Below are positions 10,418-24,072 of a DNA stretch of 64,000 bases, piece after piece (the first letter of the stretch is position 1; the number at the start of each line of letters is the position of its first letter). The DNA is taken from contig NZ_CP071953.1 of NCBI RefSeq assembly GCF_020084865.1, positions 496,001 to 560,000 on the forward strand, in the 5' to 3' direction. Under the pieces are notes generated by a model. It did no database searches and had not been told where the DNA came from. It saw only the letters and a program-made list of their open reading frames with translations. A program made the position numbers and the translations under genes. Origin of the DNA: Candidatus Kaistella beijingensis (GTDB lineage: Bacteria > Bacteroidota > Bacteroidia > Flavobacteriales > Weeksellaceae).

Positions 10418-11599
10418 TTATCCAAACGCGTTAATTCCGGTGATGTCTAAACCTGTGATTAGAAGGTGAATGTCGTGGGTTCCTTCATAAGTAATCACCG
10501 ATTCGAGATTTGCAGCGTGACGCATCATCGGAAATTCACCCATAATTCCCATTCCGCCGAGAATTTGTCGGGATTCTCTTGCGATGTCGATGGCCATTTT
10601 CACGTTGTTTCTTTTCGCCATGGAAATATGTGCAGGAGTTGCTCTATGATCGTTTTTTAAGTTTCCGAGTTGTAAACAAAGCAGTTGTGCTTTTGTGATC
10701 TCGGTTAAAAATTCAGCCAATTTTTTCTGCTGTAATTGGAACGAGGCGATTGGTTTTCCGAACTGTTTTCTTTCTTTCGCGTATTGAACTGCAGTGCAAT
10801 AACAATCAATTGCAGCACCAATTACGCCCCAAGAAATTCCGTAACGTGCAGAATTTAAACAAGATAAAGGTCCTTTCAATCCAACCACATTGGGTAATAA
10901 ATTTTCTTTCGGAACTTTCACGTTATTGAAAACCAATTCGCCCGTTTTGGATGCGCGAAGTGACCATTTATTGTGAGTTTCCGGCGTCGTAAATCCTTCA
11001 AAACTACGCTCCACAATCATTCCCTGAACTTTTCCCTCCTGATTTTTAGCCCAAACTACAGCGATATCGCAAAGTGGGGCGTTGGTAATCCACATTTTTG
11101 CACCGTTTAATAAATAATGGTCGCCTTTGTCCTCAAAATGAGTTTCCATGGAACTTGGGTCAGAACCGTGATTGGGTTCGGTTAAACCGAAAGCTCCAAT
11201 CATTTCACCTGAAGCCAACTTTGGCAAATATTTTTTCTTCTGTTCTTCGGAACCGAATTCATTGATGGGGAACATCACCAAAGAACTTTGTACAGAAGCA
11301 GCGGAACGAACCGCAGAATCGCCTCTTTCCAATTCCTGCATGATGATTCCGTAAGAGATTTGATCTAATCCTGAACCGCCATATTCTTCCGGAATGTATG
11401 GACCAAGTGCGCCAATTTTCCCCAATTCCTTCATCAAGTTGGGAATATCGGTGTGATTTTGCGCTGCCCCGTCAATTTTCGGCATTACAAAACTTTCTAC
11501 CCAATCTCTCACCGATTGCCGGATTAGCTTGTGTTCATCAGTTAAAAGTTCATCCATTAAATAGTAATCCGGAATGCTTGTAAGCGGGTAGTATGACAT
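10418..11599 (-). CDS. gcdH: Acyl-CoA dehydrogenase, glutaryl-CoA dehydrogenase type
   Basis: 393 residues. The FAD-enzyme signatures FGLTEPNHGSDPSSM (about 137-151) and WITNAP are present, and the catalytic glutamate sits in YEGTHDIH near residue 373. The RSAASVQSSLVM segment and the ending TGLDITGINAFG are typical of glutaryl-CoA dehydrogenases, which oxidise and decarboxylate glutaryl-CoA to crotonyl-CoA in lysine and tryptophan breakdown, passing electrons to ETF. No other lysine-catabolism gene is in the window, so another short-chain acyl-CoA is possible. Confidence 0.87.
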   Translation of the reverse strand: MSYYPLTSIPDYYLMDELLTDEHKLIRQSVRDWVESFVMPKIDGAAQNHTDIPNLMKELGKIGALGPYIPEEYGGSGLDQISYGIIMQELERGDSAVRSAASVQSSLVMFPINEFGSEEQKKKYLPKLASGEMIGAFGLTEPNHGSDPSSMETHFEDKGDHYLLNGAKMWITNAPLCDIAVVWAKNQEGKVQGMIVERSFEGFTTPETHNKWSLRASKTGELVFNNVKVPKENLLPNVVGLKGPLSCLNSARYGISWGVIGAAIDCYCTAVQYAKERKQFGKPIASFQLQQKKLAEFLTEITKAQLLCLQLGNLKNDHRATPAHISMAKRNNVKMAIDIARESRQILGGMGIMGEFPMMRHAANLESVITYEGTHDIHLLITGLDITGINAFG

Positions 11600-11651
11600 A
11601 ATTTTTTGATTTGCCTAAAATTAAGATTTTTCAGAAAGATGTGGAAATTTT

Positions 11652-12407
11652 TTAATGAGAATTCAGTCCATTATCCAAAAATTTGTAGAGATATGGGGCT
11701 TTGTTAGCTGAACCGTCGAAAAATTTCTCTAAGCGCTCCAAAGAATTCAGCGCCAATATTTTTCTTTGAAAGTTATTTCGGCGGAATTTCTCATCAAGAA
11801 CGGTTTCATACACCGTTTGCAGTTCCTTCATCGTAAATTTTTCTGGCAAAAGATTACTTGCAACTATTTGAGTATCAATATTTCTGCGAATATGTTCCAA
11901 TCCCTTTTCAATGATTCGGTCATGATCAAATGCCATTTTGGGCAGGTTTTTTACTTCAAACCAATCGCACGTTTCATTGAAGGCATCAGGAAAAGTATCA
12001 ACGATAGTAAAATTTATTAAACTGCAGTAACCCACCGTAATAAAACGTTGAAAAATCCAGTGATCTTTGGGAACTTCGATGCCTTTATTCTTCAATAATA
12101 TTTGGTGTACATTGTTTTCAGTTCGGTTAATCCTTCCAAACGCATGGAATTGGTCAAGGAAAATATCTTCAAGATGGGTCCTTTCGTATAACACTCTGGC
12201 TGCAGCTTCGCGCAAATCTTCGTCATTAAAAACGAATCCACCGGGAAGCGACCATAAATCGAGATCGTGATATTTCAAAAGCAAGACCTTCAAAATGCCA
12301 TCATGAAAACCAAAAATAACGCAGTCCACGGAGATGTGTTCTACAAAGTCTTTGGTGTCGATAAGTTCCTGTAAATTCTGCTTATTTTTCGAGTCGTCTA
12401 TTTTCAT
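11652..12407 (-). CDS. NUDIX-domain transcriptional regulator (NrtR/AraR-like)
   Basis: 251 residues from the ATG at 12407 (MKIDDSKNKQ). An N-terminal NUDIX domain (about 25-150) is followed by a C-terminal winged-helix region (about 165-240: MKELQTVYETVLDEKFRRNNFQRKI). The NUDIX box starts GGFVFNDEDLREAA but its catalytic REXXEE core is degraded (RVLYER). This is common when the domain is used as a sensor rather than a hydrolase. In Bacteroidota such regulators often control sugar or cofactor genes, and the adjacent half MFS transporter supports a lost sugar-uptake target. The effector is unknown. Confidence 0.8.
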   Translation of the reverse strand: MKIDDSKNKQNLQELIDTKDFVEHISVDCVIFGFHDGILKVLLLKYHDLDLWSLPGGFVFNDEDLREAAARVLYERTHLEDIFLDQFHAFGRINRTENNVHQILLKNKGIEVPKDHWIFQRFITVGYCSLINFTIVDTFPDAFNETCDWFEVKNLPKMAFDHDRIIEKGLEHIRRNIDTQIVASNLLPEKFTMKELQTVYETVLDEKFRRNNFQRKILALNSLERLEKFFDGSANKAPYLYKFLDNGLNSH

Positions 12408-12418
12408 ATAACACAAAT

Positions 12419-13078
12419 TTAAAGATTATTTTCTTTTTTTGAGACATAAGATTGAAAATAAAGAAAACTTAATATTAAAAGAATGGTAACTGCCACCGAA
12501 ATGAAGAGCGAATAATAGGTTCCGTACTTCCATTGGAATACATAGGACATCATCACCGAACCAAATGAACTTCCTAAAGAGGAGAAAATTACAATCAAGG
12601 AAGTGAAAACATTAATATCACTTTTATTTACATTGGCGATCATCTTGGAACTGATAACAGGATAAAGCGGCGCGATAAACAAACCGATTAAAGGAAAAAT
12701 AAATAAGGATAGTGATAAGTTATTGGTGACTAAAATTTGTGAAAAAACAAGCATCATCAAGATCATTAAAACACAAAAAATAAAATTCCTTTCTAGTTGA
12801 AACCGCTGAATAATATTTGCCGTAACTATTCTGCCTACATAAGAAAACAACGCTAGAAATGCCGATGCCTGCAATGCAAAAAACGAATTAACGTTGAGAT
12901 GTTGCCTGTAAAACGAGGGAAGCCACGAATTGAAATTCTGCTCAATGAAGACATATGTGAAACAAAATGCGCAAAGAATTGCCACTTCAAGCAATCGAGA
13001 TTTTCTTTTGTCAACGACTTTCATGAATGAAAACGGACAAATGGTAAATGTCATTATGAACGAAAGCGACAACGACAC
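12419..13078 (-). pseudogene. C-terminal half of an MFS sugar-permease-like transporter
   Basis: About 219 residues with six predicted membrane helices, starting at what looks like the central cytoplasmic loop (VVDKRKSRLLEVA) and running to a normal C-terminus. The FIEQNFNSWLPSFYR and YVGRIVTANII segments resemble the second half of FHS/glucose-permease-type sugar transporters, which usually have about 400 residues and twelve helices. The frame is open only to about 13120 upstream, where an in-frame TAA occurs, and no first-half sequence follows. I read it as a gene that lost its 5' half by deletion. The only candidate starts are weak (GTG at 13078). It lies just upstream of the NUDIX regulator on the same strand. 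Confidence 0.68.
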
Positions 13079-13133
13079 CGATGCACACTCTATACAAACC
13101 GTTCTATTATAATTAAATTTTTACATGCAAAGA

Positions 13134-13166
13134 GAAGAGCATCCGGTTTTGGATGCTCTTTTTTTC
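13134..13166. terminator. Terminator after the small lipoprotein gene
   Basis: AGAGCATCC and GGATGCTCT flank a short loop (about 13136-13159). The longest T run is on plus, but A/T tracts occur on both sides. It lies just beyond the 3' end of the minus-strand gene ending at 13180. Confidence 0.68.
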
Positions 13167-13179
13167 TTTTAGTCAATCA

Positions 13180-13734
13180 CTATTTTTTTTCATTCGCAGC
13201 TTTAGGTTCGGCGGTATTGCTAGAAACTTCAAACTTTTTTTCAAAATTTTTACAATCGGCGGCCTTCAAAACATGGCCACCTTCATATTTCAATTTTGAA
13301 GGATTTGCATAGGAATCTTTGTTGCCTTCCACTTTATGGTCGCCAATTCCCTCGATGAGGTTTCCACCTTTCTGTAAGAAGTAAATTTCACGGTCAGAAG
13401 TCATTCCTTCTGATTGGAATGTATAACTGAGTTTTAAAGTATCACCACTTTTGCTACCGATAACATCGCCAAACGAACTGTCTTTTTCAAAATTCTTGTA
13501 ACGCAATTTTCCAGTAATGGTACCAAGATTGTCATCCAGGGAAATAAATACAGAATCTTTCCCGGTATTCGCCATGTAGCAGGTTTGAACAGTGGAGGAT
13601 TCTACAGGTTCATTGGTTTCAGGAACTGTTACAGAATCGGGTGGAGTAGTAGAAGTGTTCACTGTTTCCGCAGATTTTTTCTCGCAACTTACTGCGAAAA
13701 GAACGATGAATGCTGATAAAATGAAATTTTTCAT
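13180..13734 (-). CDS. Small lipoprotein, function unknown (intact paralogue)
   Basis: 184 residues. The signal peptide has lipobox AVSC (Cys17), then a low-complexity Thr/Pro/Glu linker. The beta-rich core has a Cys early (QTCYM) and one late (ADCKNF). The segment YFLQKGGNLIEGIGDHKVEG, followed by YANPSKLKY, recurs in the broken gene next door, so the two are paralogues from a duplication. No family recognised. It is probably a surface or periplasmic lipoprotein. Confidence 0.75.
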   Translation of the reverse strand: MKNFILSAFIVLFAVSCEKKSAETVNTSTTPPDSVTVPETNEPVESSTVQTCYMANTGKDSVFISLDDNLGTITGKLRYKNFEKDSSFGDVIGSKSGDTLKLSYTFQSEGMTSDREIYFLQKGGNLIEGIGDHKVEGNKDSYANPSKLKYEGGHVLKAADCKNFEKKFEVSSNTAEPKAANEKK

Positions 13735-13830
13735 AGGAGAATTTAATATTTTTTTAGATGAATTTCTTGAAAATTATAAAAATAAGCTGAAATACTAAAT
13801 TTGGCGCTTAAAATTAAGGAAAATTAGGAT

Positions 13831-13858
13831 GACTTCAAATTTATACATTATGTTAAAT
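13831..13858 (+). other. Second copy of the XerD-arm 11-mer (weak dif-like site)
   Basis: TTATGTTAAAT at 13848-13858 is identical to the XerD arm at the phage right end and to that of the E. coli dif. The preceding 17 bases (spacer TATACA, left arm GACTTCAAATT) do not resemble a XerC arm. It may be chance in AT-rich DNA or the scar of an older Xer event. Confidence 0.2.
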
Positions 13859-13860
13859 TG

Positions 13861-14320
13861 TTATTTACAGATAACTTTGCTAGAGATGAAGCTTTTGGTG
13901 TAATCAATTTTCGAAGGATTGGCAAATGTGGTTGTAGAATCATTTAGTTTTAAAATTTCGCCAACGCCTTCATAAAGTTTGTTGTTTTTTTGTAAAAGAT
14001 AAATATCGCTGTGGGAAATATTTCCTTCAGCGATTGTTCTGGCTTTCAATTTTAGGGTTTCGCCAGATTTGTACCACTAAACGTTCCAGCTGAGCCATCT
14101 GTTACTGCGCTTCGGAAATCTAAATCTCCGATAATATTTCTTTTAGAATCATTTATAGCTAATTTTACAGTATCTTGGCCGATCACAGAGCGATAGCAGG
14201 TTTTAGAATTTTCTAATTGCTGAGAGTCGGCTGTAGATTTTTTTTCGGAAAGTTGTTCAGAATTTTTCTTGCAGGCAATCATTGAAAATGCGATAATTGG
14301 GATAAAAACAAATTTTTCAT
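13861..14320 (-). pseudogene. Frameshifted paralogue of the neighbouring lipoprotein
   Basis: Three reading-frame pieces together match the intact neighbour. The ATG at 14320 starts MKNLF; one missing base in a T run then shifts the frame into IPIIAFSMIACKKN (lipobox MIAC). A second missing base in an A run near 14070 ends the middle piece at TNLAKP and moves the real continuation (SGETLKLKARTIAEG) to the last frame, which ends at 13861. Adding one base at each place restores a full lipoprotein of about 150 residues. Both lesions are in homopolymers, so either true decay or sequencing error is possible. The phage attL lies about 125 bp upstream. Confidence 0.8.
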
Positions 14321-14445
14321 CACAAATTTATTTTGAGATTAATAGTATGGAGTAAATAAATTATTCCAAACATAAACTCATTAGCACAATATGTTTTATT
14401 ATGGCAATGTTGTATATTTAAACTACTGTAAATCAATAAACTAAA

Positions 14446-14473
14446 TATTCCTATAATTTATAAATTGTAAAAT
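14446..14473 (+). other. attL: hybrid dif-like site with degenerate XerD arm
   Basis: The XerC-type arm TATTCCTATAA (14446-14456), spacer TTTATA (14457-14462) and arm AATTGTAAAAT (14463-14473, 7 of 11 matching the consensus TTATGTTAAAT). The left arm should be chromosomal and the right part phage-derived if XerC made the exchange. A degenerate XerD arm on the phage side is the known pattern for Xer-exploiting phages such as CTXphi-type elements. Confidence 0.7.
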
Positions 14474-14527
14474 ACTACAAAACTCACTTTCAGGATTTTA
14501 TACAAATTTAAACTGTTAATTTTCGTT

Positions 14528-14551
14528 GTGTTGAAATGTAAATTTTAACAC
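14528..14551 (+). promoter_or_regulatory. Palindrome before the first phage gene (operator or origin hairpin)
   Basis: GTGTTGAAAT (14528-14537) and ATTTTAACAC (14542-14551) form an imperfect inverted repeat 9 bp before the ATG at 14560. It overlaps a -7-like TAAATTTT. Copies of GTGTTAAAAT also lie before the opposite-strand gene at 20657, suggesting a shared regulator. Confidence 0.4.
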
Positions 14552-14559
14552 AATTTTTT

Positions 14560-15093
14560 ATGCTTTTTAAGATAAAATTAGCAGATTACAGTCATTACAA
14601 ATATGACAAGAAGGAACCTTATGTTTTGCGATATGAATGGGTTCCAGATATTACCAAAGGGCTTGGAAATCAAATTATTCATCAAAGCAAATTTTCAAAT
14701 TTTCGTAATGCTCAAAAAGTGGCGGATGACTTGTCCAAACTCCTGGCGGATGCTTATTTGTATTTAGATTTAGTTTTCACAAAATTGAAACAACTGGAAG
14801 TTTCAATAAAAATAACGGAAAAATATTTGCAATTAGATTTTAATGAGTTGGAGAAAGTTAGAATACAGCTTTTAAAAAATTCATTAAAGACAAAAAAAGC
14901 ATACGAACATATTGAAGTATTTGATAATTATATTAATCTTCTTAAAAAGTTTTGTTTCAATATTTCACGTGATTATTATAGTATTGCAAACCAAATATTT
15001 CAGCAGCTTATAAGCTTTGAGGAGCATTTTATAAATCTTTATCGTTCGTCAAAAATTCTTTCCGAAAAAAACCAATTAAGACTTTTTGCATGA
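14560..15093 (+). CDS. Phage protein, unknown (177 aa, helical)
   Basis: No recognised family. The first 50 residues are rich in Tyr/Lys (SHYKYDKKEPYVLRYEW); residues 55-175 are predicted as long helices with Leu/Ile heptads and a conserved-looking FEEHFINLYR near the end. No signal or membrane segment. It is the first gene inside attL, and its stop overlaps the next start (ATGA), so it belongs to the early block ahead of rep. It may be a regulator or replication accessory protein; this is a guess from position only. Confidence 0.6.
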   Translation: MLFKIKLADYSHYKYDKKEPYVLRYEWVPDITKGLGNQIIHQSKFSNFRNAQKVADDLSKLLADAYLYLDLVFTKLKQLEVSIKITEKYLQLDFNELEKVRIQLLKNSLKTKKAYEHIEVFDNYINLLKKFCFNISRDYYSIANQIFQQLISFEEHFINLYRSSKILSEKNQLRLFA

Positions 15094-15308
15094 TTACAAA
15101 TTCCACTAAAAAGGAGTTGGAAAATGTAATTAAAACCGCTCTTTATAAAAGTACTGAAATACTTCCCCTCTCGGAAGTTGTTTGTTTTAATCTCACTTCG
15201 GAAACCACTCAATATTATTTTCAAATTATTTATCGTGGTTATAATTCCTATTCGGGTTATACGTATGTATTAAAGCCGCTTTTTAACTATGTTCATAAAT
15301 ATTTCTGA
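15090..15308 (+). CDS. Phage protein, unknown (72 aa)
   Basis: Starts inside the previous stop (ATGA at 15090) and ends overlapping the next start (TGATG at 15306-15310), a tightly coupled translation unit. The short protein has an amphipathic N-terminal helix and a Tyr-rich C-terminus (YYFQIIYRGYNSYSGYTYV). No family recognised. Confidence 0.55.
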   Translation: MITNSTKKELENVIKTALYKSTEILPLSEVVCFNLTSETTQYYFQIIYRGYNSYSGYTYVLKPLFNYVHKYF

Positions 15309-15532
15309 TGAAAAGCAAAACCTATTTAAATAAAAATTTTCGGTTTGTTTTTACGCCAAAGGAAAAACAACAATATCATTCTTTAAGATTTTTAGTTGGT
15401 GCGGGTTCGCTGGTAAAATATATTGGCGTTCAAAACTCTATATCTGTTATTTCAGCGGCTTTAAATTCCAAAACAGATAAAACCATTTGCAGGTTTAGAA
15501 AGTGTGGTAAAATTGAAATTTACGTGAAATAA
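15308..15532 (+). CDS. Phage protein, unknown (74 aa, basic)
   Basis: Overlaps the previous stop. Basic, with FVFTPKEKQQYHSLRFLVGAG and a central segment reading SLVKYIGVQNSISVISAAL that could be a helix-turn-helix (recognition helix SVISAALNSKTDK), and a final strand KIEIYVK. A small DNA-binding regulator is plausible but unproven. A hairpin and rep follow. Confidence 0.5.
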   Translation: MKSKTYLNKNFRFVFTPKEKQQYHSLRFLVGAGSLVKYIGVQNSISVISAALNSKTDKTICRFRKCGKIEIYVK

Positions 15533-15544
15533 CAAAAAAAAGAA

Positions 15545-15563
15545 GGGAAAATAAAATTTTCCC
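15545..15563 (+). other. Hairpin between the early genes and rep
   Basis: GGGAAAA (15545-15551) pairs with TTTTCCC (15557-15563). No T run follows, so a terminator is unlikely. It may be an attenuator, a Rep nick-site hairpin or a packaging signal. Confidence 0.35.
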
Positions 15564-15625
15564 CTATGGACTTGCCTAAAGAATCGGACTAACCGAAAAA
15601 AAAAATTCATCAAAAAAAAATTATT

Positions 15626-16816
15626 GTGAGTATTCCATTTTTAAAAGTAAAAAAAAATTGTCTTGTTTGTTATTCTTTACCCGAAACGAAGCGGTATAAT
15701 GAAAAATCAAAAGAAAATCTAAAACAATTTCAAACAATTGAAAATACGGAAAAATTAAAGGAATTAGTTGAGCTTCAAGAGAAAACAGAAATAGAGGATG
15801 TAAAAGAATTTACAAAATATTATCTTTTGAAATATGAGGAAGTAAAGAAAAAAAATTACAAAAGAAATTTTTCAGTTACTCAACGAAAAAAAATAGCTGA
15901 TTCAACAAATACGTTTATTGACTGTATAAAACACAATTACAGAAAAAAACATGGTTTTAATCAACGAATGATAACGTTTTTAACGCTGACTATACCCGAA
16001 AAACAAAAACACACCGATAAGGTTTTAGTAAAAGCTTTGGTAGATTTTATTGACCATTTAAAGAAGGTCAAAAATACCCTAATCAAAGATAAAATTGATA
16101 CCAAAGAGCAGTTATTAAAGCTAGAGAATTATGTTTGGCGTGCGGAAACTACAGAAGCTGGTAACATTCATTTTCACTTATTGTTCGATTGCTACGTTAA
16201 TCATACCACTTTAAAACGAGTTTGGAATAATTATCTACAGAAGCTCGGCTATAAGGGCGGTGAAAATGCCGCAAATATCCACAATTTAAAAAATATAAAA
16301 GATGTTGGCGACTATGTTACTAAATACATGACCAAACAACCACTAAACGATGAATTTGCTAATTTATTAAAAAGCGGACAAATTAGTCATTCCGATTTAG
16401 ATAATTACTCCGATGATGTGAAGTATCGTAGACCGATTTTATATACTTCGTGGGGTTCTTCTCGTTCATTAAAGACTTTGTCTGCGCCTACTTTTTCGGG
16501 AACTGAAATTTTTGATTTTAACGAATTAAAAGACAAGTGTCAAAAAGTAGAGTTAAAAGAAGATTTGAAAGACTATATAAAAATTTATAAAGGAAAAATT
16601 TATGATTTGTTAAATTCTTGTGGATATAAATTAAAGCATAAAATGAAGCAAAAATTTGATTTGATTTATCGTTGGTTATACGATAAAACAGATATTGAAA
16701 GGAATTTAATTAATGAGTTGTCTTGGTTATCTCGTCAATCTTTTGATAAACAAATTTTTGAACCGATACCCAGTAAAAAAAATCAAGAAAAATTAATAAT
16801 TGGAACTTTATTTTAA
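15626..16816 (+). CDS. rep: Rolling-circle replication initiator Rep (HUH endonuclease)
   Basis: 396 residues from a GTG at 15626; no other start lies nearer than the middle of the domain. Three HUH motifs appear in order: motif 1 FLTLTI (118-123), motif 2 IHFHLLFD with the metal-binding His182 and His184, and motif 3 DYVTKYMTK with Tyr230 and Tyr234 spaced YxxxY as in superfamily I Reps of phiX174-type phages. It should nick the double-stranded replicative form at the origin and attach covalently to the 5' end. The N-terminal 110 residues are a charged region without a recognised domain. There is no helicase domain, so host Rep/UvrD would be needed. Confidence 0.92.
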   Translation: MSIPFLKVKKNCLVCYSLPETKRYNEKSKENLKQFQTIENTEKLKELVELQEKTEIEDVKEFTKYYLLKYEEVKKKNYKRNFSVTQRKKIADSTNTFIDCIKHNYRKKHGFNQRMITFLTLTIPEKQKHTDKVLVKALVDFIDHLKKVKNTLIKDKIDTKEQLLKLENYVWRAETTEAGNIHFHLLFDCYVNHTTLKRVWNNYLQKLGYKGGENAANIHNLKNIKDVGDYVTKYMTKQPLNDEFANLLKSGQISHSDLDNYSDDVKYRRPILYTSWGSSRSLKTLSAPTFSGTEIFDFNELKDKCQKVELKEDLKDYIKIYKGKIYDLLNSCGYKLKHKMKQKFDLIYRWLYDKTDIERNLINELSWLSRQSFDKQIFEPIPSKKNQEKLIIGTLF

Positions 16817-16822
16817 CAAAAT

Positions 16823-16999
16823 ATGAACACTATTTTAAAGAATAACAAAAAATTGACTACAAAAGATATTGCACAATTATCCATGTGCAGTTCGCGGACT
16901 GCTGATAGAATTAAAGCTGAGATAAAAAAAATAGTTCCAAAAAATCGAAAAAATAAAAGTGTAACTTTTCGTGATTATGTACGGTATTATTGCGAATAA
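16823..16999 (+). CDS. Small HTH-like basic phage protein (58 aa)
   Basis: ATG at 16823, six bases after the rep stop; TAA at 16997-16999. The middle reads LTTKDIAQLSMCSSRTADRI followed by a basic stretch (KKIVPKNRKNK) and VTFRDYVRYY, a pattern like excisionase/MerR-type winged HTH proteins that bind DNA. It could repress phage genes or help Xer directionality. It lies before a terminator-like hairpin that separates it from the virion genes. Confidence 0.65.
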   Translation: MNTILKNNKKLTTKDIAQLSMCSSRTADRIKAEIKKIVPKNRKNKSVTFRDYVRYYCE

Positions 17000-17016
17000 A
17001 AAAAAAAAACCACGCC

Positions 17017-17040
17017 AATTTCTGCCAATGCAGAAATTTT
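17017..17040 (+). terminator. Terminator-like hairpin between early and late phage modules
   Basis: AATTTCTGC (17017-17025) pairs with GCAGAAATT (17030-17038) around a CAAT loop, with T after it. It directly precedes the putative late promoter. Confidence 0.55.
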
Positions 17041-17046
17041 GCTATT

Positions 17047-17054
17047 TAAATTTG
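17047..17054 (+). promoter_or_regulatory. Putative late promoter -7 box
   Basis: TAAATTTG fits the Bacteroidota -7 consensus TAnnTTTG and lies 33 bp before the ATG at 17088. No clear -33 TTTG is seen, so activation by a phage factor is possible. Confidence 0.45.
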
Positions 17055-17087
17055 TCACAATAAAATATTATAAAAATTATAAAAATT

Positions 17088-17729
17088 ATGTCAGTAATTA
17101 GAAAACCAATTGACGGAGAAAATGGCTTGGTACAATTTGAAATTGCAGAAAATGCGCAAAGTATCGGTTTTATTATTGGTGGAATTCCAGATTCAGTAGA
17201 CTGTAAAGTACGTGTTGAATTGATTAGTAAAAATAAAACTAATCAAACTTTGTATGATTTGAAAATGGAGGATTTGCGAAAAATTTTGTCTTTTGCATAT
17301 CCAAAAATGGGAAATGTTTTGCCGTTTGCTATTGGTAAATCGCTTGTTCTTAATGATGATAACAAATTGTTGGTAACAATTTTATTTCCTGCTGAAACTA
17401 TTGCAACAAGTTTTGCATATACTGTTAATACGTATGTGGAAATCACACAAAATCCAATGGTGATTAAAACTGTTAAAGTAGAAGAGGAGGCGGAAGTGTC
17501 AACTGAATTTTATCCTTTGATGTTGGTTAGTCAAGATGCAGAATCTTACGAAACGTTGGTGATGGTTAAAGACCAAGTTGGGGTGTTAATTCCGAACAAA
17601 GTGTTTTTTGGAAAAGATTTTATTGAAGCGAATATTCAGAATAATTCTGAATTTTTGCCTATGGTTACGCAAAGTAATCAGAAAGTAAAAATTGTAGGAA
17701 ATTCAACTAATTATTTATTGTTAATCTAA
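17088..17729 (+). CDS. Candidate phage coat protein (213 aa, all-beta)
   Basis: First gene after the late promoter. No family recognised by eye. The protein is predicted almost wholly as beta strands (FEIAENAQSIGFIIGG, KVRVELISK, LLVTILFPA, FAYTVNTYVEI), with no signal or membrane segment and no cysteine beyond one near the N-terminus. A soluble beta protein heading the structural block is the best capsid candidate. At 213 residues it is small for a double jelly-roll capsid (FLiP/PM2 type) and would fit a single jelly roll or two small beta domains. Its stop overlaps the next start. Confidence 0.5.
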   Translation: MSVIRKPIDGENGLVQFEIAENAQSIGFIIGGIPDSVDCKVRVELISKNKTNQTLYDLKMEDLRKILSFAYPKMGNVLPFAIGKSLVLNDDNKLLVTILFPAETIATSFAYTVNTYVEITQNPMVIKTVKVEEEAEVSTEFYPLMLVSQDAESYETLVMVKDQVGVLIPNKVFFGKDFIEANIQNNSEFLPMVTQSNQKVKIVGNSTNYLLLI

Positions 17730-18631
17730 TGAGTTCGCCAATACAAAATAACTTCCTTTATGGATTGTTGGGAGGTATCGAGGGTACATTTACGCAACCT
17801 ATTGGCGGAAGTTCTCAAAATTCATCAGGTATTGTTAATATCTTAAATGGTCTTAATTTGGGCGGTATTGGTGGTGGTTCTCCAACTTCATCGGGCTTGT
17901 CGGGTTTGTTATCTGCTGTCGGTGCTTCTTTGGGCCCTGTTGGTGTAGCTCTTGGCTTTGCTTCAAGTCTAATTCCGGGTTTAGATGGTTTTTTAAGCAA
18001 TGGTATGGATTTTAGCTGTTTGGGAAGTCAGGCATATAATTCCAACGATTACAATAATCATTTAAATTCTGTAAAGGCTGAATTTCAAAAGTTTGATAAA
18101 ACTACTTTGCAGGGTGCTGCGGATTGTGCTAATTATTTAGTGCGACAAATAAAAGAAGGTGAAATTGAGGTTGGTAGGTATCGTTCGGGCTGTTCCAAGA
18201 ATTTAAGATTAAAAATGAATTCGGACTGCCAGTCAATTTTAGACGGTATTGATAAAACTAATTTTGAAACGTTTACGGAATCTTCTAAAACTTGGGATAA
18301 TCAAGTATATTCATATACGGCATACAGACCTAAAGCAGGTGTAACGGCAACTCCTTTTTCAACTGAAATTACGCCCCAACAATATGAACAGGTTAAATTG
18401 CAAGTCCAAACTTATGCCGCTCAAAATGGTTTAGATTATAATGAAGCAATAAACCAAGTAGATTCGAAATTGTTTCCAAATGGTTTTCCAAATTGGCATA
18501 TCAATGCGGGTTCAGATGGTTCGGGCGGTGTAGATTGGGAAGTTTCAGCAGGAAATAAAAAGCCTAATTATATCGGTTACGCTATTTTGGCTGCATGTGC
18601 TTTCTTTGGTTGGAAACTGTTAAAAAAGTAA
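17729..18631 (+). CDS. Phage minor virion protein with C-terminal membrane anchor (300 aa)
   Basis: The ATG overlaps the previous TAA. The N-terminal 90 residues are Gly/Ser-rich and hydrophobic (GLSGLLSAVGASLGPVGVAL), as in phage pilot/DNA-ejection proteins. The middle (about 95-270) is soluble with three cysteines. The end is a membrane helix followed by lysines (YIGYAILAACAFFGWKLLKK), like the C-terminal anchors of filamentous-phage minor coat proteins. A membrane-bound spike or ejection protein is likely; which one is not clear. Confidence 0.55.
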   Translation: MSSPIQNNFLYGLLGGIEGTFTQPIGGSSQNSSGIVNILNGLNLGGIGGGSPTSSGLSGLLSAVGASLGPVGVALGFASSLIPGLDGFLSNGMDFSCLGSQAYNSNDYNNHLNSVKAEFQKFDKTTLQGAADCANYLVRQIKEGEIEVGRYRSGCSKNLRLKMNSDCQSILDGIDKTNFETFTESSKTWDNQVYSYTAYRPKAGVTATPFSTEITPQQYEQVKLQVQTYAAQNGLDYNEAINQVDSKLFPNGFPNWHINAGSDGSGGVDWEVSAGNKKPNYIGYAILAACAFFGWKLLKK

Positions 18632-18678
18632 AAAAAAAAAAAAATAAAGTAAAAATTAACAAAATAAAAAAAAAAGCA

Positions 18679-18834
18679 ATGAAAGTAGTGCAAGAATTTT
18701 TGGAAAAACCAATTTTAACTGATTCAAGTGGAAAAACTTTGGTAAATTTTAGCCATGTAGCTGCGATGGCTGTTGGTTTGTTGGGTCTTTATATGATGAT
18801 TCCAGAAAGAAAAAGAAGAAACCTTTTTAAATAA
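18679..18834 (+). CDS. Small phage membrane protein, coat-like (51 aa)
   Basis: The ATG at 18679 follows an A-rich leader; a longer frame from 18595 would overlap the upstream gene with Lys-only sequence and is rejected. Layout: mixed-charge N-terminus (VVQEFLEKPILTDSS), one membrane helix (HVAAMAVGLLGLYMMI), then a basic tail (PERKRRNLFK). This resembles small single-helix phage coat or membrane proteins. Exact role unknown. Confidence 0.6.
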   Translation: MKVVQEFLEKPILTDSSGKTLVNFSHVAAMAVGLLGLYMMIPERKRRNLFK

Positions 18835-18840
18835 TCGGTC

Positions 18841-19308
18841 ATGGGCTACAATTTAACAAAAGAAGAATATAAAAAATTTAAAGAATTGGAATCAAAAATG
18901 TGTGGTTCAAATTCTTCAAATAATTGGAATAACAGTACAAATTCTTCGAGGTCAAAAGTTAAACATTCAGGCGCAAAGTTTACAAAATACATTAATTCAA
19001 ATGGTGAGGAAAAGTATTTAACCACTGGTTGGAGATTGAACCGTAATAAGGAATTAATTTCAATTAAAGCTATAACTACAAAAAACACTTCCAAAGATAC
19101 TGTTAATAAAGATGGTGAAGATAAGGGGTGGTTTGGTTCAATTGCTGTAACTTTTACTAATACTGTTACTGGTGAAGTTAATTTTCATTGGGGAACAATG
19201 GAAAGGAAAACTGGAAAAGTTGTAGTGGATTCAATGGCATTTGTTATGAATCCACGTGCAAAAAATGGCGGCTATGCAGGAACGTTTATTAATAAAAATA
19301 AGAAATAA
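18841..19308 (+). CDS. Phage protein, unknown (155 aa)
   Basis: No recognised family. The N-terminus is helical and charged, followed by a Ser/Asn-rich linker (GSNSSNNWNNSTNSS) and a basic beta-rich C-terminal half (about 45-155) with aromatic residues (GWFGSIAVTF, GEVNFHWGTMERK). A ssDNA-binding or virion role would fit the basic beta character but is not shown. It lies in the structural block, with the next gene only 3 bases away. Confidence 0.55.
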   Translation: MGYNLTKEEYKKFKELESKMCGSNSSNNWNNSTNSSRSKVKHSGAKFTKYINSNGEEKYLTTGWRLNRNKELISIKAITTKNTSKDTVNKDGEDKGWFGSIAVTFTNTVTGEVNFHWGTMERKTGKVVVDSMAFVMNPRAKNGGYAGTFINKNKK

Positions 19309-19311
19309 AAA

Positions 19312-19449
19312 ATGGGATTTTTAATAAATTTTTTGAAAAATACGCCAAAATATAAGGCTTGGTTGGGAGTTGCAATTTCTGTTTTGGCAATGGTTGAAGA
19401 TGCTGTTGGTAAGATTAACGAAGATAAAAACTTGCCGAATATTAAATAA
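19312..19449 (+). CDS. Tiny phage membrane protein (45 aa)
   Basis: ATG at 19312, TAA at 19447-19449. Sequence MGFLINFLKNTPKYKAW is followed by a hydrophobic helix (LGVAISVLAMVEDAVG) and a charged tail. The single hydrophobic stretch suggests a virion-membrane or inner-membrane peptide. A terminator follows, so it ends the first late operon. Confidence 0.5.
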   Translation: MGFLINFLKNTPKYKAWLGVAISVLAMVEDAVGKINEDKNLPNIK

Positions 19450-19471
19450 AATTTGTGTTTAGATTGAGTTG

Positions 19472-19509
19472 AAACCGCTAAAAATCCCGTAAGATTTAGG
19501 CGGTTTTTT
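19472..19509 (+). terminator. Intrinsic terminator ending the first late phage operon
   Basis: AAACCGC... with TAAAAATC pairs with GATTTAGGCGGTTT (19493-19506), followed by a T run. Confidence 0.75.
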
Positions 19510-19536
19510 ATCTAAAAAAAAAAAAAAATAAATAAA

Positions 19537-20232
19537 ATGTTAGAAATAATTTTGGGTGGTTTTTTTGCTAAATGGTTGGATGGTTTTTTAAAATCATCAA
19601 CCGTTTCAACAAATAAAAATATTGTTTTTGTTAATAAAATTAATGCAGATGTTTTAGACCGTTTATATGCTTTTCTTGAAGTCTATGAAGGTTATCATGA
19701 TATCGCCTATGATTTGAAAGATGGTAAGATAACTATTGGTTATGGGACTACCCAATGGTTAGATGGTGCAGGTCGGGCTATTCGTCCAGTACGTATGGGA
19801 GATACTATAACAAGAGATCAAGCTAAACAACAAGTAATTAATTTTTTTATTCCTGTTATTAAAAATGTTGAATTTTATTGCACTTTAAATAAAATTGCAA
19901 TTAGTGCCGATTTGATGGTGGCTTTATTAAATTTTTGTTATATGGGTGGGATTGGTTTTATGAACTATGAATGCACCAAAAGAATAATGCTTTTTGGTAA
20001 CAATAATGCAAATAATGATTTGGTTGCAGAAAAATTAAAACAGGAAATTGTTGGATGGTTGAAAGGTATTAAATTTAAGTCAAGTGAAAAAAGGTGCAGG
20101 GCTGGTGTTACAGATAAATATCAATGCTTTGGACTTGGTTGGTCTCGTCGAATTGCAGCGTCTGTAGATTTGGTAAAAGGTGTAAAGCGTAATAAAAAAT
20201 GGTATGACCAAAACATAAAAAAACCGTATTAA
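19537..20232 (+). CDS. Phage lysozyme, glycoside hydrolase family 24 type
   Basis: 231 residues. The catalytic arrangement of T4-type lysozymes is visible: Glu51 in YEGYHDIAY, Asp59, and Thr66 in the ITIGYGTT turn. It should cleave the MurNAc-GlcNAc bonds of peptidoglycan. The N-terminal 30 residues (EIILGGFFAKWLDGFLKSS) form a hydrophobic/amphipathic helix that may act as a signal-arrest or virion-membrane anchor. It could serve release or entry. It faces the opposite-strand gene ending at 20247, with an AACCGTAT/ATACGGTT hairpin between them. Confidence 0.85.
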   Translation: MLEIILGGFFAKWLDGFLKSSTVSTNKNIVFVNKINADVLDRLYAFLEVYEGYHDIAYDLKDGKITIGYGTTQWLDGAGRAIRPVRMGDTITRDQAKQQVINFFIPVIKNVEFYCTLNKIAISADLMVALLNFCYMGGIGFMNYECTKRIMLFGNNNANNDLVAEKLKQEIVGWLKGIKFKSSEKRCRAGVTDKYQCFGLGWSRRIAASVDLVKGVKRNKKWYDQNIKKPY

Positions 20233-20245
20233 ATACGGTTAGAAT
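20222..20245. terminator. Hairpin between convergent phage genes
   Basis: AACCGTAT (20222-20229) and ATACGGTT (20233-20240) overlap the lysozyme stop codon and sit 7 bp before the end of the convergent gene. The T tract is weak. Confidence 0.5.
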
Positions 20246-20246
20246 A

Positions 20247-20657
20247 TCATTTTGAAATTTGAGCTTTAAACGGAAGGTAGTAACATTCCTTACAAAGAAT
20301 AGGATTGTTTGCCCCAAGATAAGCGGTCTTAAGTTCATCTAAAGCTTTTTCGTTAACAGAATTAAAAACTGCCATTTTTGATAGTGGAACTTTGAATTCT
20401 TTAGCGAACATAGAAAATAATTCATAGTTGAATTCTCTTATTTGAATTCCAAGTCTTTCTCTTACGTTTGATTTTTGAAATCTTGTAAAAGCTTCGTTTT
20501 TTGTTAGGTCTTGATAACTACCATTTTTAATTGATTGTTGTGTTTTTGTAGATTGATTAATTTCTGATAAAATCTCTTGAATATCCTTATCGGATGTTGT
20601 TTTTTGACCAAAAGCAAAAGAAGCTGCTAAAATTAATGTAATTGATAAAATTTTCAT
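20247..20657 (-). CDS. Secreted protein encoded against the phage direction (possible moron)
   Basis: 136 residues with a clear signal peptide (MKILSITLILAASFAFGQ, cleavage likely after FG). The mature part is helical and ends with a CxxC-like pair (ILCKECYYLPF). It is the only minus-strand gene in the phage and has its own promoter (-7 TATATTTG at 20686-20693), the layout of a lysogenic-conversion gene. Function unknown; a periplasmic effect such as exclusion of other phages is a guess. Confidence 0.65.
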   Translation of the reverse strand: MKILSITLILAASFAFGQKTTSDKDIQEILSEINQSTKTQQSIKNGSYQDLTKNEAFTRFQKSNVRERLGIQIREFNYELFSMFAKEFKVPLSKMAVFNSVNEKALDELKTAYLGANNPILCKECYYLPFKAQISK

Positions 20658-20658
20658 A

Positions 20659-20693
20659 GTGTTAAAATGTGTTAAATTAATTAAACAAATATA
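20659..20693 (-). promoter_or_regulatory. Promoter and direct-repeat operator of the opposite-strand phage gene
   Basis: The -7 box TATATTTG lies at 20686-20693 (minus). Two direct GTGTTAAA copies at 20659-20668 and 20669-20678 lie between the expected start of transcription and the ATG, resembling the palindrome at 14528. Confidence 0.45.
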
Positions 20694-20702
20694 TCAAAAA
20701 AG

Positions 20703-21179
20703 ATGCAAAAAAAAATAGATTATAAAAATGCTTTGTTTCAGGCGTTTGTTGGTGTTTTATGTTATTTTCTGTTCATTAGAAAAGATGCTGTTTTAACAAA
20801 ACCAAAATTAATTGTCGGGGATGTTATGGCGGATGGTTACGAATATCATGCAAAGTATTTTAAGGATTCAGAATATTTTGAAAAATATCAAATTCCGCAA
20901 CAGTATGAACGAAATTGGTGGGTTCTTTCTCGTATGTTGGATAAAATCCGTGAAAAGTGGGGAAGTCCTATTGTAATTACTAAAGGTTATGAACCGCCAT
21001 TAAAAGTTGTTATTGAAAATGATTTTCAGTTGTGTTTAGCTGTTCAAATTTATCCTAAAAATAGTGATTATTTGGGTTTGTATAATTTGATTAAGTCCAT
21101 GCAGTCTTTAGGGCAAATAACTCCTTCGCAGTTTATTTTAATGGATTCAAAACAAATAAAATTGTCGGTAAATGGATAG
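20703..21179 (+). CDS. Phage membrane-anchored protein, degenerate M15-peptidase-like
   Basis: 158 residues with an N-terminal membrane helix (ALFQAFVGVLCYFLFI, about 10-25). The segment WWVLSRMLDKIREKWGSPIV followed by ITKGYEP resembles the start of peptidase M15 domains (two helices, then 'G.PI.ITSGYR'). The metal-binding HxxxxxxD and second His of a working enzyme are missing. A non-catalytic cell-wall-binding virion protein is possible. Its stop overlaps the next start. Confidence 0.5.
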   Translation: MQKKIDYKNALFQAFVGVLCYFLFIRKDAVLTKPKLIVGDVMADGYEYHAKYFKDSEYFEKYQIPQQYERNWWVLSRMLDKIREKWGSPIVITKGYEPPLKVVIENDFQLCLAVQIYPKNSDYLGLYNLIKSMQSLGQITPSQFILMDSKQIKLSVNG

Positions 21180-21294
21180 GCAAAAAAAAATATCTCTGAT
21201 TGTGATTATATTATTTCTTGTTTTTTATGGTTATCGTGAAAATTGGGAAACGAAGTGTAAAGATTTTAATGGGAATTGGATTCCGTGTAAATAA
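21172..21294 (+). CDS. Tiny phage membrane protein (40 aa)
   Basis: ATG at 21172 overlaps the upstream TAG; TAA at 21292-21294. One N-terminal membrane helix (ISLIVIILFLVFYGY) is followed by a short tail with two cysteines (TKCKDFNGNWIPCK). An ORF read in another frame from 21218 runs through poly-A and is rejected in favour of this one. Confidence 0.5.
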   Translation: MDRQKKISLIVIILFLVFYGYRENWETKCKDFNGNWIPCK

Positions 21295-21328
21295 AAAAAT
21301 AAAAAAAAAAAAAAAAAATAAAAAAAAA

Positions 21329-21466
21329 ATGAAAAATTTATCAGATTGCGAACCATGCAGAAAGAGGCTTACAGCTATTATTGTTTCATTTGCTGTTGTA
21401 GGTTTGGTATTGGGTACAAAAGAAATTGTTAAACAAATTAAAAATTATAAAAATGAAAAATCTTAA
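21329..21466 (+). CDS. Tiny phage membrane protein with CxxC (45 aa)
   Basis: ATG at 21329 after a long A run that may act as the translation enhancer. The N-terminus has DCEPCRKR (CxxC), then one membrane helix (LTAIIVSFAVVGLVLG) and a Lys-rich tail. It overlaps the next gene by 14 bases. Confidence 0.5.
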   Translation: MKNLSDCEPCRKRLTAIIVSFAVVGLVLGTKEIVKQIKNYKNEKS

Positions 21467-21782
21467 GAATTTAGGTTTATTGGAAATTGCTGCTATTGTT
21501 GCTGGTGTTTTAATTTTAAATAAATTTTTAAAAGCAAAAGTTGCTATTGTTGGCAAGACAGAAAGTCAGCCATTGTCATTGTTGGATAGTCTTTTAACTC
21601 CAAAGCCTGTTGAATTGCCTACAACTCAAACTCAATTGGTTAAAGATGGTGTGCCAGTTGTTGAGTTGGTTAATAATGATATTCAAACCCCTTTTAATAC
21701 GCAATTAGATGCATCTTTTGGTTATCCTTCCGAAACCTGGGGAAATCCAAGAATACAATTAACAACCGATTATTTTAATTAA
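21453..21782 (+). CDS. Small phage membrane protein (109 aa)
   Basis: ATG at 21453 gives MKNLKNLGLLEIAAIVAGVL, a single membrane helix at the N-terminus, then a Pro/Thr-rich soluble part ending in SFGYPSETWGNPRIQLTTDY. A more upstream in-frame ATG (21426) lies inside the preceding gene and is not favoured. It is probably a virion membrane protein, perhaps linking the membrane to the beta-helix spike encoded next. Confidence 0.5.
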   Translation: MKNLKNLGLLEIAAIVAGVLILNKFLKAKVAIVGKTESQPLSLLDSLLTPKPVELPTTQTQLVKDGVPVVELVNNDIQTPFNTQLDASFGYPSETWGNPRIQLTTDYFN

Positions 21783-21783
21783 G

Positions 21784-23364
21784 ATGAAAAAGTTATTTTT
21801 ATTAAACCTACTAATTGTAGGATTTTTTGGTGATGGTCAAATATCTTTAGTTAATCCATATACAAAACAGTCAAATAATTATCTTTCAATTTCGAAGGAT
21901 TATGATGGAAATTCTTTGTTAGATTCAAATGTGGATAATGCTGTTATTTACAAAAAAAATGATAGTTATTATGCCGTTGATTCATATGTAAATGGTGAGG
22001 CCTTAAATGTTAGGATTTTTGGCGCTATTCCCAATGATGGTAAAGATGATACCATGGCGTTAAAAAAAGCGTTAAAATATAGTTCAATTGTAATTCCTGC
22101 GGGTGTTTATGAAATTTCAGATAAATTGATAATTAGCAAAAGTATTTCAATATTAGGTTTGGGCCCTGTTGATATTAATTTAAAAGATAAGGTTAATAAA
22201 GGAATGATTTTAATAAAAAATGCTTTCAATGTACGAATTGAAAACATAAACTTTTGGGGAAATCGTTCTGGTCAAGTTTTTTCAAATACTAATCCTTTAG
22301 ACCTTTCAGAAAATCGTTCAATTATTCGTGTGGAACGTTCAGAAAAAATAACTATTAAAGATTGTGTATTTGAAGAAAGTGAGGGTGATGGTATAAGTTT
22401 AGATAATGATTTTTCTTTTGAAGCCCAAAAAAGTAATGTAAATAGTGATATTATTATAGATGGAAATCAGTTTATTTCTAATGGTCGCAATGGTGTCAGC
22501 GTTATTCATGCTAAAAATGTTGTGATAAAAAATAGTAAATTTTATAATCATATTGCACAAAATTCAATGTTGGGTTGTGGAATTGATATAGAACCTAATC
22601 CTGGCCTTTCTTCTAATGAAAATTATTATATTGAAAATGTAAATATTGAAAATAATTATTTAGAAAATAACAATGAGGGCATACAAATTTTTAGAATTCT
22701 TGGAACCGTTGGAAGCGGTGGTGCTATAAAAAATGTTAATATTTTAAATAACAATTTTAAAAATAATCTTCATAATGATTTAATTGTTTGGAGTTTAAGT
22801 GATACTTCCGTTAACATTGTAGGAAATAATTTTGATTCTTTGGAAAAAACAATAAATCCCTATTATTCAGCGATTGCTGTTGTTAATTGTGATACTGCGT
22901 TAAATGTAGAAAATAATACAATTACTGCTGCAAGACCTTTTGTTTTTACTAATGTTAAAAGTGCTTCTATTGTTGGAAATCGTTGTTTTTTTACAAATTA
23001 TGGAATTTTGATAAAAAATGATAATTTCTATCAAAGTGCAATTAATTCAGAATTAAATAAATTTGAAAAAAATATTTTTTCTTTATTATCATCATCCGAA
23101 ACTGAAATTGTATTTGTTAAAATGATTACTGATAATTTAAGTACCTCTATTAAGAAAAATTTTTTTATAGAAAATATTTTTAATTCAAATTCAGTTTCTT
23201 TCAATCAATTTGCTTTTATTTTTTCCAATGTTCCTAATGGAATTATTAACAGTAATTATTTTTTGCGTAATGTTTTGAATATGCCAACTGTGAATTCTAA
23301 TTATGTACATGTCAATACTGATTCTGCACAAAAAATTGTAGATGGTGAAATAAAATTAAATTAA
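21784..23364 (+). CDS. Right-handed beta-helix protein, likely phage spike/receptor-binding
   Basis: 526 residues, the largest phage protein. A hydrophobic N-terminus (KKLFLLNLLIVGFFG) may be a signal or membrane anchor. At about 75-130 it shows the entry of pectate-lyase-3-type beta helices: RIFGAIPNDGKDDTMALKKA, then IVIPAGVYEISD. This is followed by many Asn-rich rungs (NNNFKNN, NNTITAA, GNRCFF). Phage spikes with this fold bind or cut surface glycans. No catalytic residues can be assigned by eye. It is followed at once by the holin-like gene. Confidence 0.75.
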   Translation: MKKLFLLNLLIVGFFGDGQISLVNPYTKQSNNYLSISKDYDGNSLLDSNVDNAVIYKKNDSYYAVDSYVNGEALNVRIFGAIPNDGKDDTMALKKALKYSSIVIPAGVYEISDKLIISKSISILGLGPVDINLKDKVNKGMILIKNAFNVRIENINFWGNRSGQVFSNTNPLDLSENRSIIRVERSEKITIKDCVFEESEGDGISLDNDFSFEAQKSNVNSDIIIDGNQFISNGRNGVSVIHAKNVVIKNSKFYNHIAQNSMLGCGIDIEPNPGLSSNENYYIENVNIENNYLENNNEGIQIFRILGTVGSGGAIKNVNILNNNFKNNLHNDLIVWSLSDTSVNIVGNNFDSLEKTINPYYSAIAVVNCDTALNVENNTITAARPFVFTNVKSASIVGNRCFFTNYGILIKNDNFYQSAINSELNKFEKNIFSLLSSSETEIVFVKMITDNLSTSIKKNFFIENIFNSNSVSFNQFAFIFSNVPNGIINSNYFLRNVLNMPTVNSNYVHVNTDSAQKIVDGEIKLN

Positions 23365-23366
23365 AT

Positions 23367-23645
23367 ATGAATTACGATTTTATCAAAATAAATAATATAA
23401 CCGATTTAATTGGTAAATTTAATTTGTCTTGGTTCTCAACAATTACTTTAACTTTTGCCACACCTTTAATTGAACAATTTTTGCCTATTATTACTCAAAT
23501 AGTATTGTTTTTTAGTATTCAGTTAATTGCATTTTTTGTAGATTTCGCTCGTTTAAAGTGGCTTTCAGAAAAACGAAACTCAACAATAAAACAAGTTAAG
23601 GAAGAAATTCAAATTGAATCCGAAACGATGGAAGATGAACAATAA
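23367..23645 (+). CDS. Holin-like phage membrane protein (92 aa)
   Basis: Two adjacent hydrophobic stretches (about 20-58: STITLTFATPLIEQFLPIIT, then VLFFSIQLIAFFVDFARL) and a charged C-terminal tail (KQVKEEIQIESETMEDEQ). This is the shape of small class II-like holins that let a lysozyme reach the wall. It lies some 3 kb from the lysozyme gene, so the link is by inference. Its end overlaps the next ATG. Confidence 0.55.
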   Translation: MNYDFIKINNITDLIGKFNLSWFSTITLTFATPLIEQFLPIITQIVLFFSIQLIAFFVDFARLKWLSEKRNSTIKQVKEEIQIESETMEDEQ

Positions 23646-23850
23646 AAATTTAAAGTCTTGGCGTTTAACAATTTTTAATGCTAATAATAAGTATTTAGGA
23701 ATTATTTTGTATGGTTCAGAACAAAATACAGATTTTCCTAATACTAAAAATTGGCTTTCAAAATCTAATAAATTTGATTCTTGGCATTATTTTAACGTAT
23801 ATGACCGCAGAAATGACAATCAGTTTTTAAAGAGGGTTTATCGAAATTAA
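23635..23850 (+). CDS. Phage protein, unknown (71 aa)
   Basis: The ATG at 23635 overlaps the stop of the holin-like gene (11 bases). A further-upstream TTG start (23614) is possible but less likely. The protein is rich in Asn/Trp/Tyr with no membrane segment (KSWRLTIFNANNKYLGIILY). It is the last phage gene before the right end. No family recognised. Confidence 0.5.
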   Translation: MNNKNLKSWRLTIFNANNKYLGIILYGSEQNTDFPNTKNWLSKSNKFDSWHYFNVYDRRNDNQFLKRVYRN

Positions 23851-23908
23851 AATTAAAAATTCTTTACCGTTAATGTCTTTTTGATAATTCGCTTTGACTG
23901 ATTCTTTT

Positions 23909-23940
23909 TAAATTCCTATAATTTATTTTGTAGGAATTTA
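23909..23940. other. Hairpin containing a third XerC-arm-like sequence
   Basis: TAAATTCCTA (23909-23918) pairs with TAGGAATTTA (23931-23940). Its left side and loop contain ATTCCTATAATTTAT, identical over 15 bases to the attL XerC arm plus spacer. It may be a folded attachment site of the ssDNA form, or the terminator of the last phage operon, with T-rich sequence following. Confidence 0.45.
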
Positions 23941-24044
23941 ATTTTTATCTAATATTGCAGTATTAAACGATAAATTTAAACTTAATTATTAACTGATTTA
24001 CATATTTAAACACTACGATTTTAATAAGTTACGAAAGTCTGTAT

Positions 24045-24072
24045 TTGTCCTATAATTTATATTATGTTAAAT
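24045..24072 (+). other. attR: dif-like site with perfect XerD arm
   Basis: XerC-type arm TTGTCCTATAA (24045-24055), spacer TTTATA (24056-24061) and TTATGTTAAAT (24062-24072). The last arm is identical to the XerD-binding arm of the E. coli dif and the spacer differs at one base from TGTATA. The right half should be host DNA, so the host's chromosome-dimer resolution site was probably here. Confidence 0.75.

Follow-up and report, generated by a model that had tools for sequence, protein, structure and literature searches.

The window analysed here, 64,000 nucleotides of the genome of Candidatus Kaistella beijingensis (NZ_CP071953.1, positions 496,001 to 560,000), contains a block of about 9.6 kb that the original prediction placed at 14457..24055 and described as a rolling-circle phage integrated at the host dif site. 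Including the dif-type sites at both ends the block spans 14446-24072, in agreement with the predicted coordinates to within ~20 bases. The host genome is a single contig of 2,816,191 bases, in which the element is present as a single copy, and the GC content of 14457-24055 is 28.9%. We accepted 19 open reading frames (ORFs) as genes, 18 on the plus strand and one on the minus strand. Very probably the element is a temperate phage akin to phiCjT23 and FLiP, and apparently intact. On this reading it has a circular genome of ~9.6 kb, probably of single-stranded DNA (ssDNA), encloses an internal membrane in a capsid of double jelly roll proteins and integrates at dif through the XerCD system of the host. 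The position of dif, the empty sites, the open frames, the relatives, the capsid fold (as a model) and the homology of two proteins, together with the gene order, to phiCjT23 are shown by computation.

Pfam and PHROGs searches with each of the 19 ORFs gave clear family matches for Rep, the lysozyme, the beta-helix protein and orf3. Rep matched PF23343 (2.8e-9) and phrog_3419 (2.8e-5), and in an alignment of five Reps, that of the window included, H182-F-H184 and the tyrosine pair Y230/Y234 were invariant, as expected for the HUH Rep of the original prediction. The predicted GH24 lysozyme (PF00959, 7.6e-8; phrog_7, 1.3e-8), beta-helix protein (PF13229, 3.1e-4, under the Pfam cut-off; phrog_2234 tail spike, 2.9e-7) and small membrane proteins are likewise present. 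We propose that the beta-helix protein is a receptor-binding spike. Its phrog_2234 match is one of only two tail-type assignments; the other, of the 58-aa helix-turn-helix (HTH)-like protein to phrog_5774 (head-tail joining, 0.0035), we read as a chance match. In the alignment of the M15-like protein the metal motif of that family is missing, and because of this we read the protein as non-catalytic, perhaps a peptidoglycan-binding part. The 300-aa Gly-rich protein is proposed from its position to be a membrane or DNA-delivery protein of the virion. Among the families matched by the 19 ORFs there is no integrase, terminase, portal or Zot/pI, an absence that the original prediction had stated for integrase, terminase and Zot/pI.

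The hallmark capsid that was not recognisable by eye is present. The 213-aa ORF is the major capsid protein (MCP) by its predicted fold: its AlphaFold model, with a predicted local distance difference test score (pLDDT) of 86, shows a double jelly roll, and the closest folds are those of the MCPs of phiCjT23, FLiP and PM2. The model thereby supports the suspected resemblance to FLiP, as a kinship with FLiP and phiCjT23 at the level of fold. In the model of one MCP the two halves have their elements in identical order. The window MCP belongs to a family of nine proteins, matched in 5 of 296 family genomes, and the lengths are 208-232 aa over the window-type alignment (A2), 214 aa in the related element L080, and 216-218 aa in 12 of 13 copies of the multi-copy relatives designated g29, with 206 aa in the remaining one. 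When the MCP was searched for across the order, matches appeared in 2 of 395 genomes, neither of them new. No relative was found in IMG/VR with the MCP protein, the Rep protein or the MCP alignment, nor in the GTDB-220 contigs with the MCP alignment. Among phage records the MCP search returned only three chance Salmonella rows (E 4-9), and the 300-aa Gly-rich protein found no relative. On the profile scans and the capsid model together we reject a tailed phage, as originally argued. The same holds for a classical inovirus: the only phage records that the window Rep matched (tblastn, E 1) are three uncultured 'Inoviridae sp.' records, which would favour an inovirus-like filamentous prophage, but the lack of any Zot/pI family match, the double jelly roll capsid model and the presence of a lysozyme led us to reject that candidate, and we give it only the slightest of chances.

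In 35 of 36 congeneric genomes the motif CCTATAATTTATATTATGTTAAAT occurs once when up to one mismatch is allowed, and the reversed-pattern control gave 0. We take it to be dif because of this single-copy conservation and because its right arm equals the E. coli XerD arm. The only exact copy in the window is the right end of the element, at 24045-24072, which bears out the predicted location. The left end has the CCTATAA arm end and the hexamer as in dif, but a differing right arm, AATTGTAAAAT. From the two ends the phage attP is deduced as TTGTCCTATAA-TTTATA-AATTGTAAAAT and the host dif as TATTCCTATAA-TTTATA-TTATGTTAAAT. Other XerD-side arms are seen in related elements (AATTGTTAAAA in L007, AATTGTTAAAT in L008 and L080, AAATGTGAAAT in L010), and in L010 and L080 the gene block is inverted relative to dif when compared with the window. 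This arm pattern is as would be expected after Xer-mediated insertion of a phage attP carrying its own XerD arm. For the 35 matching genomes 30 dif loci were fetched, and 29 non-own loci were compared. The left flank, mainly a lipoprotein-like gene, was matched in 27 of these and the right flank, a gene read from its ORF as phospholipase-D-like, in 5. The search for empty sites that had been suggested was productive: four of the 29 loci (L021, L024, L027 and L043) carry the flanking genes on both sides of dif. A complete dif remains at the right end of the element, and therefore resolution of chromosome dimers can continue. The internal palindrome at 23911-23938 may, from its sequence, be a terminator or a second Xer site. 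To the left of attL, at 13180-14282, lie lipoprotein-like ORFs, the nearest of which look split by eye (13861-14049 and 14052-14282), possibly a broken paralogue.

These ends bear on whether the element is still active. An alternative is a provirus of this lineage that is in decay or has been domesticated, no longer produces particles and persists only because insertion at dif is harmless; the degenerate XerD arm of attL and the GTG start of Rep would fit such a history. We consider this unlikely, as all listed ORFs are open, the motif residues of Rep are kept, and relatives of the MCP at 94% (in a Chryseobacterium metagenome-assembled genome, MAG) and 85% identity still retain all 213 aa. The left XerD arms of L007 and L008 are similarly different, and therefore a phage-type arm fits rather than decay.

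Seven elements were compared by iterated profile searches, whose E-values are inflated by the iteration: that of the window, L007 (genome G036), L008 (G148), L009 (G062), L010 (G089), L080 (G141) and one g29 copy, L091. All seven contain Rep, the small HTH-like protein, the MCP, the Gly-rich protein, the 51-aa protein, the homologue of phiCjT23 gp07 and the last gene; the lysozyme and the M15-like protein are found in six, the holin-like protein in five, and the beta-helix protein in two, the window element and L008. The Rep profile matched in 11 of 296 family genomes, some of them weakly. The hosts are apparently Weeksellaceae, judged partly from the names of relatives. In L007 a 230-aa protein (11857-12549, minus strand) looks DNA methylase-like by eye, with no Pfam match at E 1, and is possible anti-restriction cargo.

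Table 1. Features of the integrated element, in coordinates of the window. Homologues refer to the six elements compared with it; TM, transmembrane.
Feature	Position	Strand	Evidence or remarks
attL	14446..14473	+	TATTCCTATAA-TTTATA-AATTGTAAAAT; host XerC arm, hexamer, phage-type XerD arm; 20/24 vs dif motif
orf1, 177 aa, function unknown	14560..15093	+	homologues in L007, L008
orf2, 72 aa, function unknown	15090..15308	+	homologue in L008
orf3, 74 aa	15308..15532	+	homologues in L008, L009, L080; phrog_32997 (1.6e-7, unknown function)
Rep, 396 aa, GTG start, HUH rolling-circle initiator, G2P-like	15626..16816	+	PF23343; aligned motifs
small HTH-like protein, 58 aa, directly after rep	16823..16999	+	position of phiCjT23 gp04; HTH assignment weak
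MCP, 213 aa, predicted double jelly roll	17088..17729	+	AlphaFold model and fold comparison
Gly-rich protein, 300 aa, C-terminal TM-like segment	17729..18631	+	homologues in 6/6 relatives
51-aa protein, one TM-like segment (by eye)	18679..18834	+	homologues in 6/6 relatives
phiCjT23 gp07 homologue, 155 aa, predicted small beta barrel	18841..19308	+	60% over 118 aa
small protein, 45 aa	19312..19449	+	no homologue among six compared relatives
GH24 lysozyme, N-terminal hydrophobic segment	19537..20232	+	PF00959, PHROGs
signal-peptide-like protein, 136 aa	20247..20657	-	homologue in L080; similar-sized opposite-strand ORF in same place in L007, L008, L009, L010
TM-anchored weakly M15-like protein, 158 aa, probable pseudoenzyme	20703..21179	+	Pfam, PHROGs, alignment
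small membrane-type protein, 40 aa	21172..21294	+	no homologue among six compared relatives
small membrane-type protein, 45 aa	21329..21466	+	homologue in L008
109-aa protein, N-terminal TM-like segment	21453..21782	+	homologue in L008
beta-helix protein, 526 aa, signal-peptide-like N-terminus	21784..23364	+	Pfam, PHROGs; homologue only in L008 of six relatives
holin-like membrane protein, 92 aa (role by eye)	23367..23645	+	homologues in 4/6 relatives
last gene, 71 aa, ATG at 23635	23635..23850	+	homologues in 6/6 relatives and unannotated phiCjT23 ORF
internal palindromic dif-like sequence	23911..23938	+	18/24 matches; candidate terminator or second Xer site
attR	24045..24072	+	TTGTCCTATAA-TTTATA-TTATGTTAAAT; phage XerC arm, host dif core and XerD arm

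The closest described phage is phiCjT23 (ON067806), for which PMC9719478 gives a temperate life, an ssDNA genome of 7642 nt and an MCP of 239 aa, called there the smallest known double jelly roll and a possible model for an ancestral MCP. The window element resembles it in the predicted MCP fold and in the gene order rep, small HTH-like protein, MCP, TM protein and gp07, with one extra small TM gene in the window between rep and the gp07 homologue. The 155-aa protein is 60% identical to phiCjT23 gp07 over 118 aa (blastp); it is predicted to form a small beta barrel, and we propose that it binds ssDNA. A database search with this protein gave 121 homologues; among the 120 listed, 14 rows name an organism other than bioreactor metagenome: ten Flavobacterium, one Flavobacteriaceae, one Soonwooa purpurea, one Epilithonimonas mollis and one Citrobacter-labelled MAG. 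Soonwooa and Epilithonimonas are Weeksellaceae. For 28 of the 120 the longest contig is exactly as long as one that holds a phiCjT23-type MCP, falling to 0-2 when the lengths were shifted by 1-10 bases. The 71-aa last gene matches an unannotated 74-aa ORF of phiCjT23 (L012, 6332-6556; phmmer E 0.001 in a small set). With phiCjT23 and its Flavobacterium prophages the element also shares, as read from its sequence, dif integration without an integrase and a temperate life. It differs in its length (9.6 kb against 7.6 kb), its apparently Weeksellaceae host, an MCP that is 26 aa shorter and without directly detectable sequence similarity, a Rep of another Pfam family (PF23343, against PF02486 in phiCjT23 and PF05144 in FLiP), and a GH24 lysozyme and a beta-helix protein for which no homologue was found in phiCjT23.

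FLiP (Finnlakeviridae, MF361639) is similar in the double jelly roll fold of its MCP, its size and its rolling-circle-type Rep. In contrast to the window element its MCP has 311 aa, its rep lies after rather than before the structural genes, and it is reported in PMC13269007 as non-integrating. None of its proteins matched the window at E 0.01 (blastp) or 1e-3 (iterated profiles) and the MCP profile comparison was negative, and FLiP was rejected as the closest relative by sequence. The Cellulophaga phages phi12:2, phi18:4 and Omtje are likewise small ssDNA phages of Bacteroidota, and their Reps resemble that of phiCjT23; the window Rep did not match them in the tblastn search of phage records. 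The corticovirus PM2, of which only the capsid was compared, shares the MCP fold and is a double-stranded DNA (dsDNA) phage according to PMC9719478. The element might be a dsDNA, PM2-like phage with a double jelly roll capsid. We think this improbable: no packaging ATPase family was matched in the 19 ORFs by Pfam or PHROGs (a diverged one could escape), Rep is G2P-like, and the gene order and two proteins match those of phiCjT23, an ssDNA phage in the same source.

Several observations weigh against a phage of the phiCjT23/FLiP kind. No penton protein was identified among the proteins of the element; the sole spike candidate, the beta-helix protein, is missing from five of the six relatives. 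The Rep belongs neither to the phiCjT23 family nor to the FLiP family. The other four AlphaFold2 models of the MCP have pLDDT values of only 71.6-78.3, and against BFVD, a library of predicted virus structures, the MCP model matched more weakly (best E 4.6e-5, template modelling score 0.27). Direct profile comparison of the MCP with those of phiCjT23 and FLiP was negative: hhalign of the window-type alignment A2 against the phiCjT23-type alignment A3 gave a probability of 0.2%, and none of the nine window-type MCPs (P0001-P0009) was among the 120 listed of 123 matches to the phiCjT23 MCP. The g29 MCP scores with both profiles (19 bits with A2, 13 bits with A3) and may provide a weak, indirect link. 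Finally, attL agrees with dif at only 20 of 24 positions, and therefore excision may be slow or blocked.

On the reading that we prefer, an intact temperate phage, host XerC and XerD would recombine attP with the host dif and so place the phage in the chromosome. Rep would nick the circular form and yield single strands by rolling circle, and the 155-aa protein may coat or condense them. The 300-aa and 51-aa proteins would tether the membrane vesicle on which the MCP assembles, packaging would presumably be independent of an ATPase, and the lysozyme and the holin-like protein would release the particles. The beta-helix protein would be an exchangeable receptor-binding part.

One branch of the lineage lies away from dif. 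In G062 the dif-like site (one mismatch) is at 1,405,687, and the L009 element is at ~2.86 Mb. The element covers ~6925-17598 (element orientation), and its right end carries a transposase with HTH_38 and rve domains, which we take to be of IS30 type. Its terminal repeats are similar to those of the g29 copies, elements of 8.3-8.6 kb with a similar transposase in three genomes of one genus, G050, G076 and G065 (L085-L097, L128-L137). The g29 transposase was profile-scanned in L091 and aligned as DNA in 12 other copies compared. These multi-copy relatives have terminal inverted repeats, 3-base duplications and up to 11 copies per genome; searches for the shared exact ends found 22 end motifs (11 copies) in G050, 13 in G076 and 2 in G065, with none in the reversed control. 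Identical three bases lie on both flanks in 10 of 18 copies. In G050 the flanking triplets of the seven remaining copies, paired by reading the rows, form two closed cycles, one of four (L085, L087, L088, L090) and one of three (L086, L133/L132, L135/L134), which suggests chromosome rearrangement through recombination between prophage copies; the triplets of the G076 copy L095 are unexplained. Comparison with empty sites in sister genomes (n=9) gave a clean 3-base overlap in three cases (L103, L108, L117) and a less exact one in four (L098, L099, L106, L109), and two did not align (L101, L112).

Most insertion sites of these copies have a further feature in common. The sequence CAAANNTA begins 57-59 bases ahead of the ACATTC (left) end sequence in 14 of the 18 copies, which are not all independent (L088 and L092 have a common left flank). 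In the other four it lies at 29 (L094), at 191 (L096) or, in two, not within reach; its background frequency is 0.93 per kb on one strand. CAAANNTA corresponds to the Bacteroidota -7 box read in reverse, and we regard it as promoter-like.

Lysogeny at dif is not in itself new in this kind of phage, contrary to what the original prediction supposed. PMC9719478, published in 2022, describes the temperate phiCjT23 and 57 putative Flavobacterium prophages of 6021-8407 bp with putative dif sites at their flanks. Putative FLiP-like prophages in Sphingobacteriia are also on record (PMC13269007), and PMC5894146 describes a FLiP group that has an M13-like Rep and includes possible prophages of Bacteroidetes. 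What is new is a separate lineage, apparently of Weeksellaceae, with MCPs of 208-232 aa against 239 aa in phiCjT23. A new family is plausible from sequence comparison because the MCP is not detectably similar to those of phiCjT23 and FLiP by direct profile and Rep is in a different Pfam family. On balance the evidence leans slightly towards an undescribed family-level lineage of membrane-containing ssDNA phages that infect Weeksellaceae, whose double jelly roll MCPs would be the smallest found so far and which would switch between two modes of lysogeny. One branch, that of the window element, would use host Xer at dif; the other would use an IS30-type transposase, multiply in the manner of a transposon to as many as 11 copies per chromosome and insert 57-59 bases from promoter-like boxes. 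The literature, covered in part, gave no report of Weeksellaceae carrying this lineage and none of a double jelly roll phage borne by an IS30 element; relative to these sources the lineage, its small capsid and its branch with a transposase are new.

If this is true, a small ssDNA phage has turned into a transposable, promoter-targeting prophage. The authors of phiCjT23 stated that further studies were needed on whether other genera are infected (PMC9719478), and the lineage suggests that they are, in several genera of apparent Weeksellaceae. Its MCPs of 208-232 aa are a test case for the origin of the double jelly roll fold by gene duplication, and the lineage shows that in phages of this type the modules for capsid, Rep, lysis and integration are replaced independently of one another.

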